NCBI RefSeq assembly: GCF_000424985.1
Contig: NZ_AUKX01000007.1
Span: 62,001-126,000, forward strand
Source: Arenibacter latericius DSM 15913
GTDB taxonomy: Bacteria > Bacteroidota > Bacteroidia > Flavobacteriales > Flavobacteriaceae
Direction of reading: 5' to 3'
Length of the DNA: 64,000 bases
Part shown: positions 49,795 through 55,272 of the stretch, one piece after another
Layout: each line of letters starts with the position of its first letter
Numbering within the stretch: the stretch's first letter is position 1
Notes under the pieces: model-generated
Told to the model about the DNA's origin: nothing
What the model saw: only the letters and a program-made list of their open reading frames with translations
Database searches by the model: none
Made by a program: the position numbers and the translations under genes

Positions 49795-50562
49795 TTAGTT
49801 ATTTACCCTTTTAATCTGACTTTTCAGTTCTTCCATTGATTCCTGTAATTGTCGCAACAGTCCACTTTCCGAAGTGGCGTCTACACCAAAGGTAATTTTA
49901 CTTCCCACTTGCCAAAGTTCCTGTAGCTCATTTGTCTTAACACGATAGGGTGGGTAATTTTCATTTATAGAAATAAGAGAAATCTCTGTAGGGTCTGGAG
50001 ATCTTTCAATTTTCTTTACTAAAACGGCATCTTGTAGAACAACAACATAAATTTTATTGGGACTTATATCCTGCAATCCTTCCACAGCCTTGGCTAAAAC
50101 CCACTCCCCTGGCCTCAAATTAGGTAGCATACTATCTCCTTCTACTTGAAAGCCACGATAAGTAGCATTTCTAAACTCCGGAAGAGGGATATCGAACGCA
50201 GGAAGTTGACGATACCAACTAGTATCTTGTATATTCTGAGGGTACCCTGCGGCAGCTTTAGCATTTACTAAAACCATATTCTCATTATCTGAGGAGTCTA
50301 CAGTTACTACTTTTGGCATTACACTGCTATTTGCCGTAGATAAATTCTTATGAATACTATCTCCATACAACCAAAGAGGATTCACGTTAAATTGTTTGAG
50401 CAGTTGAGCAACTACAGTTCCAGATAATTTGGTCCTACCACGCTCTATATCAGCAGTAGTATTGGAAACTCCCAAAAGCTTGGCAAATTCTGCCTGTGTA
50501 AAACCTAATTCCCTACGAATCTCTGTAAAACGCTTAACTGCAATCTCTAAATTATCGTTCAT
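49795..50562 (-). CDS. XRE-S24 repressor (LexA/CI-like, self-cleaving type)
   Basis: The 255-residue protein has an XRE helix-turn-helix (about residues 8-60, with FTQAEFAKLLGVSNTT) and a C-terminal S24 peptidase domain. Cleavage could fall at Ala105-Gly106 in KAAAGYP. The catalytic pair is Ser144 in VEGDSML and Lys183 in VLVKKIER, spaced as in LexA and UmuD. Such repressors cleave themselves when RecA filaments form after DNA damage. A short coiled coil follows at the C-terminus. It is divergent from a two-gene DNA-repair-like operon, and three palindromes lie in the shared 173-nt gap, one of them inside its own promoter. It is therefore probably autoregulated. Confidence 0.9.
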   Translation of the reverse strand: MNDNLEIAVKRFTEIRRELGFTQAEFAKLLGVSNTTADIERGRTKLSGTVVAQLLKQFNVNPLWLYGDSIHKNLSTANSSVMPKVVTVDSSDNENMVLVNAKAAAGYPQNIQDTSWYRQLPAFDIPLPEFRNATYRGFQVEGDSMLPNLRPGEWVLAKAVEGLQDISPNKIYVVVLQDAVLVKKIERSPDPTEISLISINENYPPYRVKTNELQELWQVGSKITFGVDATSESGLLRQLQESMEELKSQIKRVNN

Positions 50563-50649: not shown

Positions 50650-50664
50650 TTGGAGTATATCCAA
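50650..50664. promoter_or_regulatory. Operator-like palindrome 1
   Basis: TTGGAGTATATCCAA is a perfect TTGGA-N5-TCCAA palindrome. It spans the -33 box and spacer of the repressor promoter. Confidence 0.65.
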
Positions 50665-50672
50665 TAAAATTG

Positions 50673-50687
50673 TTGGATTATTTCCAT
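50673..50687. promoter_or_regulatory. Operator-like palindrome 2
   Basis: TTGGATTATTTCCAT keeps TGGA-N5-TCCA. Its centre is 23 bp from palindrome 1. It covers the likely -33 region of the plus-strand promoter. Confidence 0.6.
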
Positions 50688-50690
50688 ATT

Positions 50691-50705
50691 TAGGAATAAA
50701 TCCAT
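50691..50705. promoter_or_regulatory. Operator-like palindrome 3
   Basis: TAGGAATAAATCCAT keeps GGA-N5-TCC. Its centre is 18 bp from palindrome 2, and it touches the -7 box of the plus-strand promoter. Confidence 0.55.
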
Positions 50706-50712
50706 ATATTTG
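50705..50712 (+). promoter_or_regulatory. -7 element of the small-gene/TIGR03915 operon
   Basis: TATATTTG matches the consensus and begins within palindrome 3. The start near 50718 gives a leader of about 18 nt before the ATG at 50736. Confidence 0.6.
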
Positions 50713-50735: not shown

Positions 50736-50912
50736 ATGACTATTGAAGAGCTACACCACAAATTAAGTCTATTAGCCCTAACTGCAATAGGAGATGAACC
50801 CTTGATAACACCCAAACCAAGGATTAGAAAACCTAAACTAAAAAGGTCTACACAGCCTAAGCCTGATTGTTTGGAAAACAAGAATTATATACAATTTAGT
50901 TTATTTGATTAA
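50736..50912 (+). CDS. 58-residue protein with C-terminal sliding-clamp motif
   Basis: The ATG at 50736 opens 58 codons. The product starts with a helix (TIEELHHKLSLLALTAIGDE), has a basic proline-rich middle (PKPRIRKPKLKRSTQPKP) and ends QFSLFD, where residues 53-57 fit the DnaN clamp-binding consensus QxxLF. The next gene starts 2 nt after its TAA, typical of coupled translation, and its promoter lies among LexA-like palindromes. I know of no named family for it. It could tether a repair factor, perhaps its operon partner, to the clamp. The frame is short, so chance is possible, but promoter, spacing and motif agree. Confidence 0.72.
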   Translation: MTIEELHHKLSLLALTAIGDEPLITPKPRIRKPKLKRSTQPKPDCLENKNYIQFSLFD

Positions 50913-50914
50913 GC

Positions 50915-51631
50915 ATGGAAAATGTAAAAATTTTACGATATGATGGAAGTCTAAATGGTTTCTTATGCGCCATATACCGGGCTTTCGAATCAAAATTAAG
51001 AGTAATCGATATTCAAAAAAGCGAAAAGGCTCAAAAAGGTTTATTTACGGAAGTAGAAACTATTATTACGGATGTAAATAAAGCTAGACGTGTATGGATA
51101 GGTATCCAAAAGAAAAACAATGCGGCGATCAAAAATATCTACTTTTCATTTCTGAGCGAATCAAAAGGGATTGAATTACTGCTGTATAAATACATTTGCT
51201 CTCTCTACAATACGACATCTGATACTGAATCAGAAGAAGAATTACAGACCATACGAATAAAACTATACCAATATTCAGGTATGGTATCTAGAGAAAAACT
51301 CCGAATTGAGTCGATCGCTAAATTCAGAGTTTCCCAAGATGGTATTTATTTTTCTGCGGTATCACCATACTATGATGTATTACCACTTTTAAGTAAATAC
51401 TATAGATCAAAATTTCCTAATAAGGCGTTTGCTATCTACGATCTCAAAAGACGTTATGCTGTTTTTTATGATCTAGAGACAACACAAATAATTAGGACAG
51501 ATCTTTCCAATATCCAATCTATAGGTCCATTATCTAAAACAAATTTAAAACCTTTAATTAAGAGGGAGCTTTTCACTCATGATTATACACCACATGCCAC
51601 TAGTTTCTTTAGTGAAAAAGAGGCCGTTTAA
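50915..51631 (+). CDS. TIGR03915/DUF4130 family putative DNA metabolism protein
   Basis: The 238-residue protein begins LRYDGSLNGFLCAIYRAFE, the TIGR03915 start, and later has REKLRIESIAKFRV, FSAVSPYYDVLPLLSKYYRSKF and AIYDLKRRYAVFYD, the DUF4130 core. In other genomes such proteins are paired with a radical-SAM protein (TIGR03916) thought to act on DNA; that partner is absent here. Instead a 58-residue clamp-motif protein precedes it by 2 nt. A damage-inducible DNA repair or modification role is inferred from family pairing and the LexA-like repressor; the reaction is unknown. Confidence 0.82.
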   Translation: MENVKILRYDGSLNGFLCAIYRAFESKLRVIDIQKSEKAQKGLFTEVETIITDVNKARRVWIGIQKKNNAAIKNIYFSFLSESKGIELLLYKYICSLYNTTSDTESEEELQTIRIKLYQYSGMVSREKLRIESIAKFRVSQDGIYFSAVSPYYDVLPLLSKYYRSKFPNKAFAIYDLKRRYAVFYDLETTQIIRTDLSNIQSIGPLSKTNLKPLIKRELFTHDYTPHATSFFSEKEAV

Positions 51632-51788: not shown

Positions 51789-52316
51789 TTATTTACTTTT
51801 TGCACCTACAAAATTATCGCTCTGATTCTTAAAGAGAACATTAAAAGTTGTTAAGCTACCATAAATACGAGTAATGTATTGTTGCAAGTCAACTTTTTCT
51901 TGGTCATCCAGATTAGAACTACTATTAATTTTCTGTTCCATCACCCTTATACGGTCTCGCACCATAACTATCTTATGAAAAAAAGTATCTATTGGTATTT
52001 TCTTTTCTGATAAATTGGCATCCCCAGGCTCTAGAACTAAGGTTCCCCCTTTCCATTTATCTGCTATTGGAGTAACGGAACTGGCATCACTCCACCTTCT
52101 AAGTATCTCTATTAAAGACTGTTCAACTTCAGAAAAGCTAATAGAATCTACCTCATCTTCCAAGGCCTCAATTACTTCAAAATCTGAATCAATAGCAATG
52201 GTTTCTAGGCCGCTATCCATAAAGGTTACCCAATAATGCTTGGAGGTCACATTAGTAACCACCCCTTTACCTAATTCTTGATGCTGTATTCGCGACCCTA
52301 TTCCTAAAATCTGCAT
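51789..52316 (-). CDS. Conserved-looking protein with KOW/Tudor-like N-terminus
   Basis: The 175-residue soluble protein begins GIGSRIQHQELGKGVVTNVTSKHYWVTFMDSG in part, a small beta-barrel pattern as in KOW, Tudor or UvrD C-terminal domains that bind RNA polymerase or nucleic acid. The middle has EVEQSLIEILRRWSD, and the end is helical with a charged coiled coil. I do not recognise the family. It is divergent from uvrA over about 120 nt, so a role in DNA or RNA transactions is possible but unproved. Confidence 0.7.
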   Translation of the reverse strand: MQILGIGSRIQHQELGKGVVTNVTSKHYWVTFMDSGLETIAIDSDFEVIEALEDEVDSISFSEVEQSLIEILRRWSDASSVTPIADKWKGGTLVLEPGDANLSEKKIPIDTFFHKIVMVRDRIRVMEQKINSSSNLDDQEKVDLQQYITRIYGSLTTFNVLFKNQSDNFVGAKSK

Positions 52317-52421: not shown

Positions 52422-52440
52422 CGCTTTGATGACAAAAACG

Positions 52441-55272
52441 ATGGCATACGAAGAAAATATTGAGGTTCAGGGAGCTCGGGTACACAACCTAAAAAATATA
52501 GATGTTACTATCCCTAGGGAAAAGCTGGTAGTAATAACCGGACTTTCGGGTAGTGGTAAATCATCTTTAGCTTTCGATACCATTTATGCAGAAGGTCAAC
52601 GAAGATACATAGAGACTTTTTCTGCTTATGCACGACAATTTTTAGGAGGATTAGAACGTCCAGACGTGGATAAAATAGACGGACTTTCTCCTGTTATCGC
52701 GATTGAGCAGAAAACCACCTCTAAATCTCCGCGTTCCACAGTTGGCACCATTACCGAAATTTATGACTTTCTTAGGTTATTGTTTGCAAGGGCGAGTGAT
52801 GCCTACAGCTACAATACCGGTGAGAAAATGGTTAGTTATGATGATGAGCAGATTAAAGACCTCATAATATCAACCTATAAGGACAAAAGGATTAATATTC
52901 TTGCCCCGGTAATTAGATCTAGAAAGGGACACTATAGGGAACTGTTTGAACAGATTGCTAAACAGGGGTTTGTAAAAGTAAGAATAGATGGGGAAATAAA
53001 GGATATTGTAAAGGGCATGAAAGTAGACCGTTACAAAACCCATGACATTGAAATTGTTATAGACCGACTTAAAATTTCTTCTGGCCCTGAATTAGATAAG
53101 CGTATTTCTGAAAGTATTAATACTGCTATGTATAGCGGAGATAATATATTGATGGTTTTAGAAGAGGGCAAAGACGAGCCTCGCTATTTTAGTAGAGACC
53201 TTATGTGTCCTACTACAGGTATCTCTTATCCCTCACCAGAACCAAATACATTTTCTTTTAACTCCCCAAAAGGAATGTGCCCTGATTGTAATGGTTTAGG
53301 AAATATTCATGAGGTGAACGAAAGCAAAATATTCCCCAATAAAAAATTATCAATTACCGCTGGTGGTATAGCACCCTTGGGGCCTTACAAAAAATCATGG
53401 GCTTTTAAGCAAATAGAAATCATTGCCCAGCGTTACAATTTTAGTTTGGACGATCCCATATCTAAAATTCCAGATGAAGCAATTAAGATATTGCTATATG
53501 GAGGAAAAGAAAGTTTTGAAGTAGATTCCAAAATTTTAGGAGTTAAAAGAAAATATAAGATTGATTATGAAGGAATTTCGCATTTTATAAAAAGTCAGTT
53601 CCACGAAGCCAATTCAACTTCCATAAAAAGATGGGCTAAGGAATATATGGACAAAATTAAATGTCCAACCTGCGAAGGCACTCGCTTAAAACAAGCTTCT
53701 TTAAACTTTAAGATAGACGCTAAAAACATTGCTGAATTATCCAATTTGGATATTTCTGACCTAGCAGATTTTTTCGGGAATTTAGAAGAAAAGCTATCAG
53801 GTAATCAATTGAAGATCGCTGAAGAAATAATTAAAGAGATTAGAAGCAGAATCCAATTTTTATTGGATGTAGGCTTAAACTATCTTTCATTAAACCGTAG
53901 TAGCAAGTCTCTTTCTGGTGGGGAGGCTCAACGGATTAGACTTGCTACCCAAATAGGCTCTCAACTAGTAGGGGTACTTTACATTTTAGACGAACCCAGC
54001 ATTGGTCTACATCAAAGAGACAATGAGCGTTTAATAGCTTCCTTAGAATCACTAAGAGATATTGGAAATTCTGTTATTGTAGTAGAACATGATCGGGATA
54101 TGATAGAGCGTGCAGATCATGTAATAGATATTGGACCAAAAGCTGGAAAATACGGTGGGGAAATAATATCACAAGGGAGTCCTGCAGAGCTCAGAAATCA
54201 TCACACCCTTACCGCAGCATATATAAACGGAGAGAAAGAAATAGAGGTACCTAAGACTAGAAGATCTGGCAATGGGAAATCTATAAAACTTACCGGTTGT
54301 ACTGGTAATAACCTTAAGAATATTTCAGTAGAATTCCCTTTAGGTAAAATGATCGGGGTAACAGGAGTATCAGGAAGTGGAAAGTCAACTTTAATTAGTG
54401 AAACATTGTACCCTATTCTAAACGCTTATTATTTTAATGGCGTTAAAGAACCAATGCCTTATAAAAAAATAAGTGGATTAGAACATATAGATAAAGTAAT
54501 AGACATTAATCAATCTCCCATTGGTAGAACCCCAAGGTCTAATCCAGCCACCTACACTGGAGTATTCAGTGAAATACGAGCCCTGTTTGCAAAGACCCAA
54601 GAAGCCGCAATTAGAGGCTACAAACCTGGGCGATTTAGTTTTAATGTTACAGGTGGACGTTGCGAAACTTGTAAAGGTGGTGGTTTAAGAGTTATAGAAA
54701 TGAATTTTCTGCCAGATGTATATGTAGATTGCGAGACTTGTAATGGAAAACGATTTAACCGAGAAACCTTAGAAATAAGATACAAAGGAAAGTCAATTGC
54801 AGATGTTCTAGAAATGACCATCAATGAATCGGTAGATTTTTTTGAAAACATTCCTAAAATCCATAGAAAACTTAAAACCATACAGGATGTAGGGTTAGGA
54901 TATATTTCTTTAGGTCAACAATCCACAACACTTTCTGGAGGAGAGGCACAGCGAATTAAGTTAGCAACTGAATTATCTAAAAAAGATACTGGAAACACCT
55001 TTTATATTTTGGATGAACCCACTACTGGCTTACATTTTGAGGATATTAGAGTACTTATGAATGTTTTAAACAAACTTGTAGACCAAGGGAATACCGTCTT
55101 AATTATAGAACACAACATGGATGTTATAAAAATGATGGATCATATCTTGGATATTGGTTATGAGGGGGGGCGAAATGGAGGAATGGTGGTTGCAAAAGGT
55201 ACTCCTGAAGAAGTAGCTAAAGATAAAAAAAGTCATACTTCCAAGTATCTAAGAAAAGAATTAGGTTTGTAA
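52441..55272 (+). CDS. uvrA: Excinuclease ABC subunit A
   Basis: From ATG 52441 the protein has 943 residues, normal for UvrA. It has two ABC modules: Walker [10 protein letters not shown] and GVSGSGKST, signatures [13 protein letters not shown] and [13 protein letters not shown], Walker [13 protein letters not shown] and [12 protein letters not shown]. Zinc sites lie in [15 protein letters not shown] and CETCKGGG...CETCNGKRF. It finds bulky DNA damage with UvrB in nucleotide excision repair. Starts at TTG 52426 and ATG 52429 lie at the predicted transcription start; 52441 ([16 protein letters not shown]) fits best but 52429 is possible. Bacteroidota often have a second UvrA. Confidence 0.95.

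Follow-up and report, generated by a model that had tools for sequence, protein, structure and literature searches.

Organization of the locus

The window analyzed in this study, a stretch of 64,000 nucleotides from the genome of Arenibacter latericius DSM 15913, harbors a small gene of 58 codons plus stop (50736..50912, + strand), here referred to as mini, which is kept in the genus and shows the signature of purifying selection. Its translation (MTIEELHHKL...YIQFSLFD, 58 aa) has a conserved part at either end. The N-terminal block of the form [IL]...KL..LA..[AG]..D (residues 1–20; 50736..50795, + strand) resembles the start of TIGR03916, while the codons of a predicted clamp-binding motif, QFSLF (residues 53–57; 50892..50906, + strand), fit the QxxLF consensus and are followed by Asp and the stop codon. 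Searches with the 58-mer revealed no Pfam or NCBIfam family at E ≤ 1.

The TAA codon of mini ends at 50912 and the next gene starts with ATG at 50915, leaving a gap of 2 nt. This gene (50915..51631, + strand) encodes a short TIGR03915/DUF4130 protein of 238 aa. Further downstream, a conserved gene for a 175-aa protein (51789..52316, − strand) and a uvrA-like gene (52426..55272, + strand; recognized by its N-terminal sequence only) served as synteny markers. Upstream, a divergent gene (49795..50562, − strand) encodes an HTH and S24 repressor of the Bacteroidetes non-canonical LexA type, with Ala105-Gly106, Ser144 and Lys183. Between repressor and mini lie three palindromic operators of the pattern GGA-N5-TCC (50652..50663, 50675..50686 and 50693..50704), spaced by 23 and 18, and the box TATATTTG (TAnnTTTG; 50705..50712, + strand) 23 nt before the mini ATG, which we take to be a −7 promoter box of the Bacteroidetes type.

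Two claims of a first-pass annotation of this DNA concerned this arrangement, and both hold. The frame ending in QFSLFD does stop 2 nt before a DNA-metabolism gene, as that gene scores 131.9 bits with TIGR03915, above the cut-off of 112.25 (profile positions 1–195 of 243 only), and matches DUF4130 in Pfam (59.4 bits, cut-off 27). The LexA-like repressor suggested to control the frame is found in the divergent gene, which carries HTH_3 and Peptidase_S24 domains; its Ala-Gly site, Ser and Lys were located by pattern.

The small frame is kept as a protein-coding gene

The short TIGR03915 copy is present in all 18 Arenibacter genomes, and mini stands directly before it in 17 of them; in the remaining one (G010), no mini-type frame is left before this copy. 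Across seven species pairs, the dN/dS of mini was 0.20 for residues 2–22, rose to 0.52 in the middle and fell to 0.05 over the last seven codons, compared to 0.12 for DUF4130. The last seven codons do contain synonymous changes (Sd 7.0, Nd 2.0; 7 species pairs). Taken together, this pattern suggests that selection acts on the ends of the protein and not on the DNA. The first-pass annotation had considered the frame to be probably real and had singled out the C-terminal QxxLF as the part to be conserved. Presence in 17/18 genus genomes and purifying selection bear out the former, and the invariance of Q53, L56 and F57 in 16 diverse minis, in addition to M1 and D20, bears out the latter. The invariant Q, L and F occupy motif positions 1, 4 and 5, which carry weight in the clamp-binding consensus QL[S/D]LF or QxxLF, according to the available part of PMC12309361.

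The C-terminal motif by itself was rejected as proof of a gene, since Q[LF]x[LF]Fx followed by a stop is not rare in the genome: with TAA or TAG, it occurs 36 times in 4.48 Mb, compared to 19 times in the reversed control. Among 30 matches examined, four (mini included) close a frame that measures 50 aa or more from its first Met. What goes beyond chance is the conservation of the motif in place in 17/18 genus genomes, not the motif alone. Both end patterns together were found only in mini among the 85 ATG frames of 40–120 aa in the window, where the N-terminal pattern had been drawn from the minis themselves. Judged by its sequence conservation, the 58-codon frame is a real, protein-coding gene of marine flavobacteria.

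As a separate observation, two other frames of the source genome end in a similar motif, QLALFY (L175; 96 aa, truncated where the locus ends) and QLALFC (L183; 303 aa), and are possibly transposases with clamp tails.

Distribution of mini

Overall, we collected 40 distinct mini copies, including that of the window, each positioned right before a gene for DUF4130 or radical SAM. Thirty were found by position and C-terminal pattern and ten by profile. All of the first 30 end in QxxLF and 28 fit the N-terminal pattern drawn from them; the C-terminal counts are partly so by construction, because the QxxLF pattern itself was the detection criterion for 30 of the 40. The profile (16 rows) did not require QxxLF, but its seed has it. 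At E ≤ 0.01, it gave 22 matches in 397 Flavobacteriaceae genomes; a search of 296 genomes of the order gave six, with two weak ones outside the family. Inspection of 14 profile-matched loci yielded the ten further minis, one already known and three loci without the C-terminal motif. No frame with this motif was found near the match in two of the 22 family matches (G672, G619) and in one of the two matches outside the family (G298, the other being G212). Thus, homologues keeping the C-terminal motif before TIGR03915 in related genomes, as proposed in the first-pass annotation, were looked for and found, and the opposite outcome, loss of the motif in relatives, was not observed.

All minis are assigned to Flavobacteriaceae, except for that of L148, a metagenome-assembled genome (MAG) named only as Bacteroidetes bacterium. 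The copies measured range between 53 and 75 aa. DUF4130 persists without mini in several lineages, namely in G010, in five of the best 80 of 269 relatives' loci and in five further genomes (L074, L075, L077, L078 and L083), so that mini is not obligatory. The first-pass annotation had missed these mini-less lineages.

The operon slot upstream of TIGR03915

TIGR03916, a radical-SAM protein of the family named rSAM_link_UDG that starts like MSFERIKEKLNILADAAKYD, is the usual partner of TIGR03915. In the best 80 of 269 relatives' loci, the slot before TIGR03915 is occupied by TIGR03916 in 52, by mini in 23 and by neither in five; ten of the enzyme loci had been missed by the initial pattern and were assigned by eye. 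An S24 gene lies upstream on the opposite strand in 80/80 of these best loci, and the 175-aa neighbor was seen in 40/80. We detected uvrA downstream within the fetched stretch in 65/80 (23/23 mini loci, 5/5 with neither and 37/52 enzyme loci), and the 15 loci without it are all enzyme loci, mostly from Maribacter. In Zobellia (L049), S24 and the operator are followed by radical SAM, full TIGR03915 and uvrA, and Arenibacter carries mini where Zobellia has the radical-SAM enzyme. TIGR03916 is absent from 15/18 Arenibacter genomes and from 14/14 genomes of other genera; of these 14, 13 carry a gene for TIGR03915, whereas G172 has a fragment. A second, complete TIGR03915/TIGR03916 pair is encoded elsewhere in three genus genomes, including the source genome (C44). 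Judged by gene order, mini thus usually occupies the TIGR03916 slot, which the first-pass annotation had missed.

Replacement of the enzyme by mini is not general, as two genomes of one genus (G263, G326) show the order S24, mini, radical SAM, full TIGR03915 and uvrA. Their radical-SAM proteins are 420 aa long with CX3CX2C present and their minis 53 aa from the Met chosen as start, which indicates that mini can be a third operon member. Together with the selection described above, this coexistence weakens the view that mini is simply left over from a deletion in the radical-SAM gene. A relic of enzyme deletion, as judged from its sequence, is seen on one MAG contig (L132): here, the operator is directly followed by the codons QQLSLFN and a stop, with no ATG, and trees put this locus among the enzyme loci.

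Two further features of enzyme loci were recorded in passing. A second small conserved frame of about 43–76 aa, which differs from mini, lies between radical SAM and TIGR03915 in L103, L135, L141, L144, L149 and others. Of the 50 enzyme loci examined, 27 have a gap of 140 nt or more, and 23 of these 27 contain the frame; its motif, [IVL]L..[GS]Y......K[ST]..KK, was drawn from the frames themselves. In a Pricia MAG (L119), the gap measures 1049 nt and contains another frame (336 aa).

We also investigated how often mini arose. Independent, repeated reductions were not retained as a conclusion: the AU test that spoke against one mini clade (p = 0.013) had shut out L067, an Arenibacter locus without mini nested inside the genus, and is superseded. 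One clade of mini-type loci, nested mini-less rows included, was not rejected (p = 0.547 and 0.664). The same was true for a placement of L148 outside the enzyme clade (p = 0.695) and for a tree in which the genus with both mini and enzyme joins the enzyme clade (p = 0.709). L084 (G172) and L078 were excluded from the trees. The constrained tree outscored the free quick tree in four of four tests, showing that the quick trees were poorly searched.

Mini resembles the two ends of TIGR03916

The C-terminal end of TIGR03916 reads QLxLF, in some copies followed by a few residues. In 29 aligned copies, K11, L12, L15, A16 and D22 are invariant near the start and Q417, L418, L420 and F421 near the end. 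Among the 52 S24-linked copies, QxxLF lies within 12 residues of the end in 50/50 examined, and the remaining two (L126, L154) end in QLSLFN and QLALFN. With an N-terminal block followed by a C-terminal QxxLF, mini has the same order of elements. Based on sequence, both conserved blocks of mini resemble the TIGR03916 ends, a further point missed in the first-pass annotation.

Comparing a mini profile with whole TIGR03916 by hhalign placed Met on Met, with P values of 0.0043 for the whole mini and 0.0011 for its N-terminal part. The N-terminal score of 21.8 was reached by 0/300 column permutations (maximum 18.3; first Met kept). The probabilities given by hhalign were nevertheless low (7.9% and 20%), and single minis compare only weakly with the TIGR03916 N-terminus: six of 24 scored at ≤ 5 in 1000 shuffles and several were at chance. 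Because of this weak single-sequence similarity and the low probabilities, homology of the N-terminal block to the TIGR03916 start is likely but not proven. In mini itself, neither the CX3CX2C cluster motif nor a TIGR03916 profile match was found. The structure model of TIGR03916 is poor (mean pLDDT 54), and a helix at residues 5–19 falls in a stretch under 50 and was set aside.

Mini and TIGR03916 share the operon slot, the C-terminal QxxLF and probably a similar N-terminal block, whereas the approximately 420-aa TIGR03916 has a CX3CX2C core and mini lacks the whole enzyme core. Separately, we noted that the radical-SAM protein of Maribacter arcticus (L160:2533–3789) has a Ser where the second Cys of the cluster is expected (CX3SX2C), which could be an error or an inactivation.

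The downstream TIGR03915/DUF4130 protein

The closest named relative of the window protein is the DUF4130 protein of A. certesii (79% identity). Copies of TIGR03915 differ in their C-terminal region depending on what occupies the upstream slot. Here, decay was measured as identity to the consensus over strongly conserved columns in the last 45 of TIGR03915 (..HVPKRYWKYLSEK). This identity was 0.98 in the 52 S24-linked enzyme loci and 0.84 in 20 distant enzyme-linked copies (core 0.73), compared to 0.31 in 29 mini loci (core 0.69) and 0.39 in ten loci with neither (core 0.74). The latter group is mixed, as L132 (0.97) and L114 (0.85) retain the C-terminal region, as recent losses would; L121, L114 and L132 have intermediate sequences. 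A strict HVPKRYW-type pattern was present in 51/52 enzyme loci, 1/23 mini loci and 0/5 others, and we preferred the graded identity because L119, L132 and L114 miss this pattern by one to two residues. The C-terminal region thus mostly decays where the enzyme is gone. From this co-decay, it seems that the region acts together with the enzyme core, whereas the remainder of DUF4130 works independently of that core. Two fragments match only the C-terminal part of TIGR03915 (G003:C1:3818918–3819040 and G172:C7:144624–144758) and are probably remnants.

The AF2 model of the DUF4130 protein (mean pLDDT 84.4) resembles DHH-family folds. Its top match in the PDB is the PAP phosphatase 8a8k (E 4e-4, TM 0.42) and that in a viral library a Klosneuvirus DHH phosphohydrolase (E 4e-4, TM 0.37); RecJ, RecJ2 and Cdc45 are among the lower matches. 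No significant sequence match was found in the PDB. This modelled likeness to DHH phosphoesterases is a weak lead and not an assignment. In the available part of PMC3765255, DUF4130 is called a predicted mutagenesis-related enzyme.

The DUF4130 protein also contains an internal QxxLF of its own, QKGLF (residues 40–44 in a predicted loop; 51032..51046, + strand). An internal Q..[LIM]F is found in 52/52 S24-linked enzyme loci, 28/29 mini loci, 9/10 loci with neither and 9/20 distant pairs. In S24-linked loci, it is a possible second clamp motif, by which DUF4130 might reach the clamp unaided. Position three is mostly Gly, and Gly at this position weakens clamp binding according to the available part of PMC12309361; mini may therefore supply the strong clamp contact.

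Repressor, operators and regulon

The regulatory elements of the window recur in its relatives. In the best 80 of 269 relatives' loci, the Ala-Gly, Ser and Lys patterns occur together in 62, and the 18 misses fail in Lys only. The operator triple, searched with N5 or N6 allowed, is present in 75/80 of these best loci at spacings of 22–23 and 18, and a TAnnTTTG box follows it in 75/75. Single operator sites mean little, as the pattern GGANTAWWTCCA has 27 matches in the source genome and 21 in the control. Clustered operators occur at only two places in this genome, at the mini locus and in the promoter of a Y-family polymerase of 404 aa. The latter (G000:C20:60990–61506; L213, L197) carries two GGA-N5-TCC operators. 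In the 18 genus genomes, an operator pair precedes 20/20 Y-family genes of the 404-aa class and 0/18 DinB genes of the 363–365-aa class; three Y-family loci (L262–L264) fall outside these counts. An internal QINLF was found in two copies of the 404-aa polymerase.

TIGR03916 is probably COG4277, and we take COG1573-COG4277 to be the canonical TIGR03915/TIGR03916 pair. By its sequence features, the window repressor fits the Bacteroidetes non-canonical LexA described in PMC8565304. The available part of this work reports that S24 regulators of two groups bind their motifs, with GGA-N5-TCC mainly in Flavobacteriaceae, that regulon targets are induced by mitomycin C in other species and that the COG1573-COG4277 operon belongs to the regulon. 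The mini locus is alike in its HTH and S24 repressor and its operators, and DinB-type and COG4277 members occur in the regulon as here. The mini locus differs in having a mini-like small protein, which is absent from the available part of the regulon account (PMC8565304).

Proposed function and alternatives

The first-pass annotation had named mini a clamp adaptor and a new repair co-factor; these are candidate roles and unproven. Our own reading, to which we lean by a little, is that mini may be a DNA-damage-induced clamp adaptor delivering DUF4130 to the sliding clamp. We infer that self-cleavage of the S24 repressor would lead to SOS induction of the operon, so that mini and the short DUF4130 protein would be made together. 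The helix-like N-terminal block would bind DUF4130, and the C-terminal QxxLF would dock in the hydrophobic pocket of the beta sliding clamp. DUF4130 would thereby be recruited to clamps on stalled or post-lesion DNA, and the co-regulated Y-family polymerase would act there as well.

Alternatively, mini could act alone as a damage-induced clamp competitor that occupies the clamp pocket, displaces the replicative polymerase and favors the co-induced Y-family polymerase, much like the toxin SocB of Caulobacter. That QxxLF is the best-conserved part of mini and that similar operators precede the Y-family polymerase gene would suit such a role, but a bare competitor would not need the N-terminal block, which is conserved (dN/dS 0.20) and TIGR03916-like, and the minis found adjoin DUF4130 or radical SAM; we consider it unlikely. 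The shared kind of operators could also mean that mini serves the Y-family polymerase, or another clamp client, instead of DUF4130. We judge this improbable, given that mini shares its operon position with DUF4130 and that two copies of the polymerase contain an internal QINLF themselves.

It appears equally improbable that mini has no function as a protein and represents a leader, a coupling frame or the remains of a deleted radical-SAM gene. Relics do occur, as L132 shows, and some lineages have no mini. Against this stand the purifying selection at codon level, which is strongest at the C-terminal motif while synonymous changes are tolerated, the retention of both blocks over diverged species and the intact radical-SAM frame alongside mini in two genomes.

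The adaptor reading can be extended to the enzyme. In relatives, TIGR03916 carries similar blocks at its two ends around an enzyme core; most Arenibacter and their allies lack this core, with the putative targeting piece alone remaining. The TIGR03916 ends might accordingly form a portable targeting module made of a partner-binding helix and a clamp tail. As a free micro-protein, such a module might, in some Flavobacteriaceae, have outlived the enzyme and deliver a stand-alone, possibly DHH-fold DUF4130 to the clamp in the SOS response. We put this module reading forward tentatively and rate its chances at somewhat below even.

Relation to known systems and implications

Small clamp-binding proteins have a parallel in SocB of Caulobacter, reportedly a toxin that acts as a small clamp-binding inhibitor and is proteolysed. 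SocB-type inhibitors and mini would be alike as small proteins with a clamp motif, whereas SocB is said to be a proteolysed toxin and mini belongs to an operon next to an S24 repressor gene; the two are likened by description only. Motif and C-terminal position are also shared with the clamp-binding tails of polymerases and transposases (QL[S/D]LF, QLxLF) in the available parts of PMC12309361 and PMC4549789. Those tails sit on enzymes, whereas that of mini is one of two conserved parts of a 58-aa protein. In the open-licence literature searched (without preprints and most subscription papers), we found no account of mini or of a TIGR03916 clamp tail, and open-licence full texts on TIGR03915, TIGR03916, COG4277 and DUF4130 contained no experiment on the chemistry of this putative repair pair.

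A conserved clamp-type tail on TIGR03916 would place the TIGR03915/TIGR03916 pair at the replication fork, and mini shows which pieces of TIGR03916 survive the loss of the enzyme. It offers a small handle on the pair, with a 6-residue tail for putative DnaN binding and a 20-residue block for putative DUF4130 binding.
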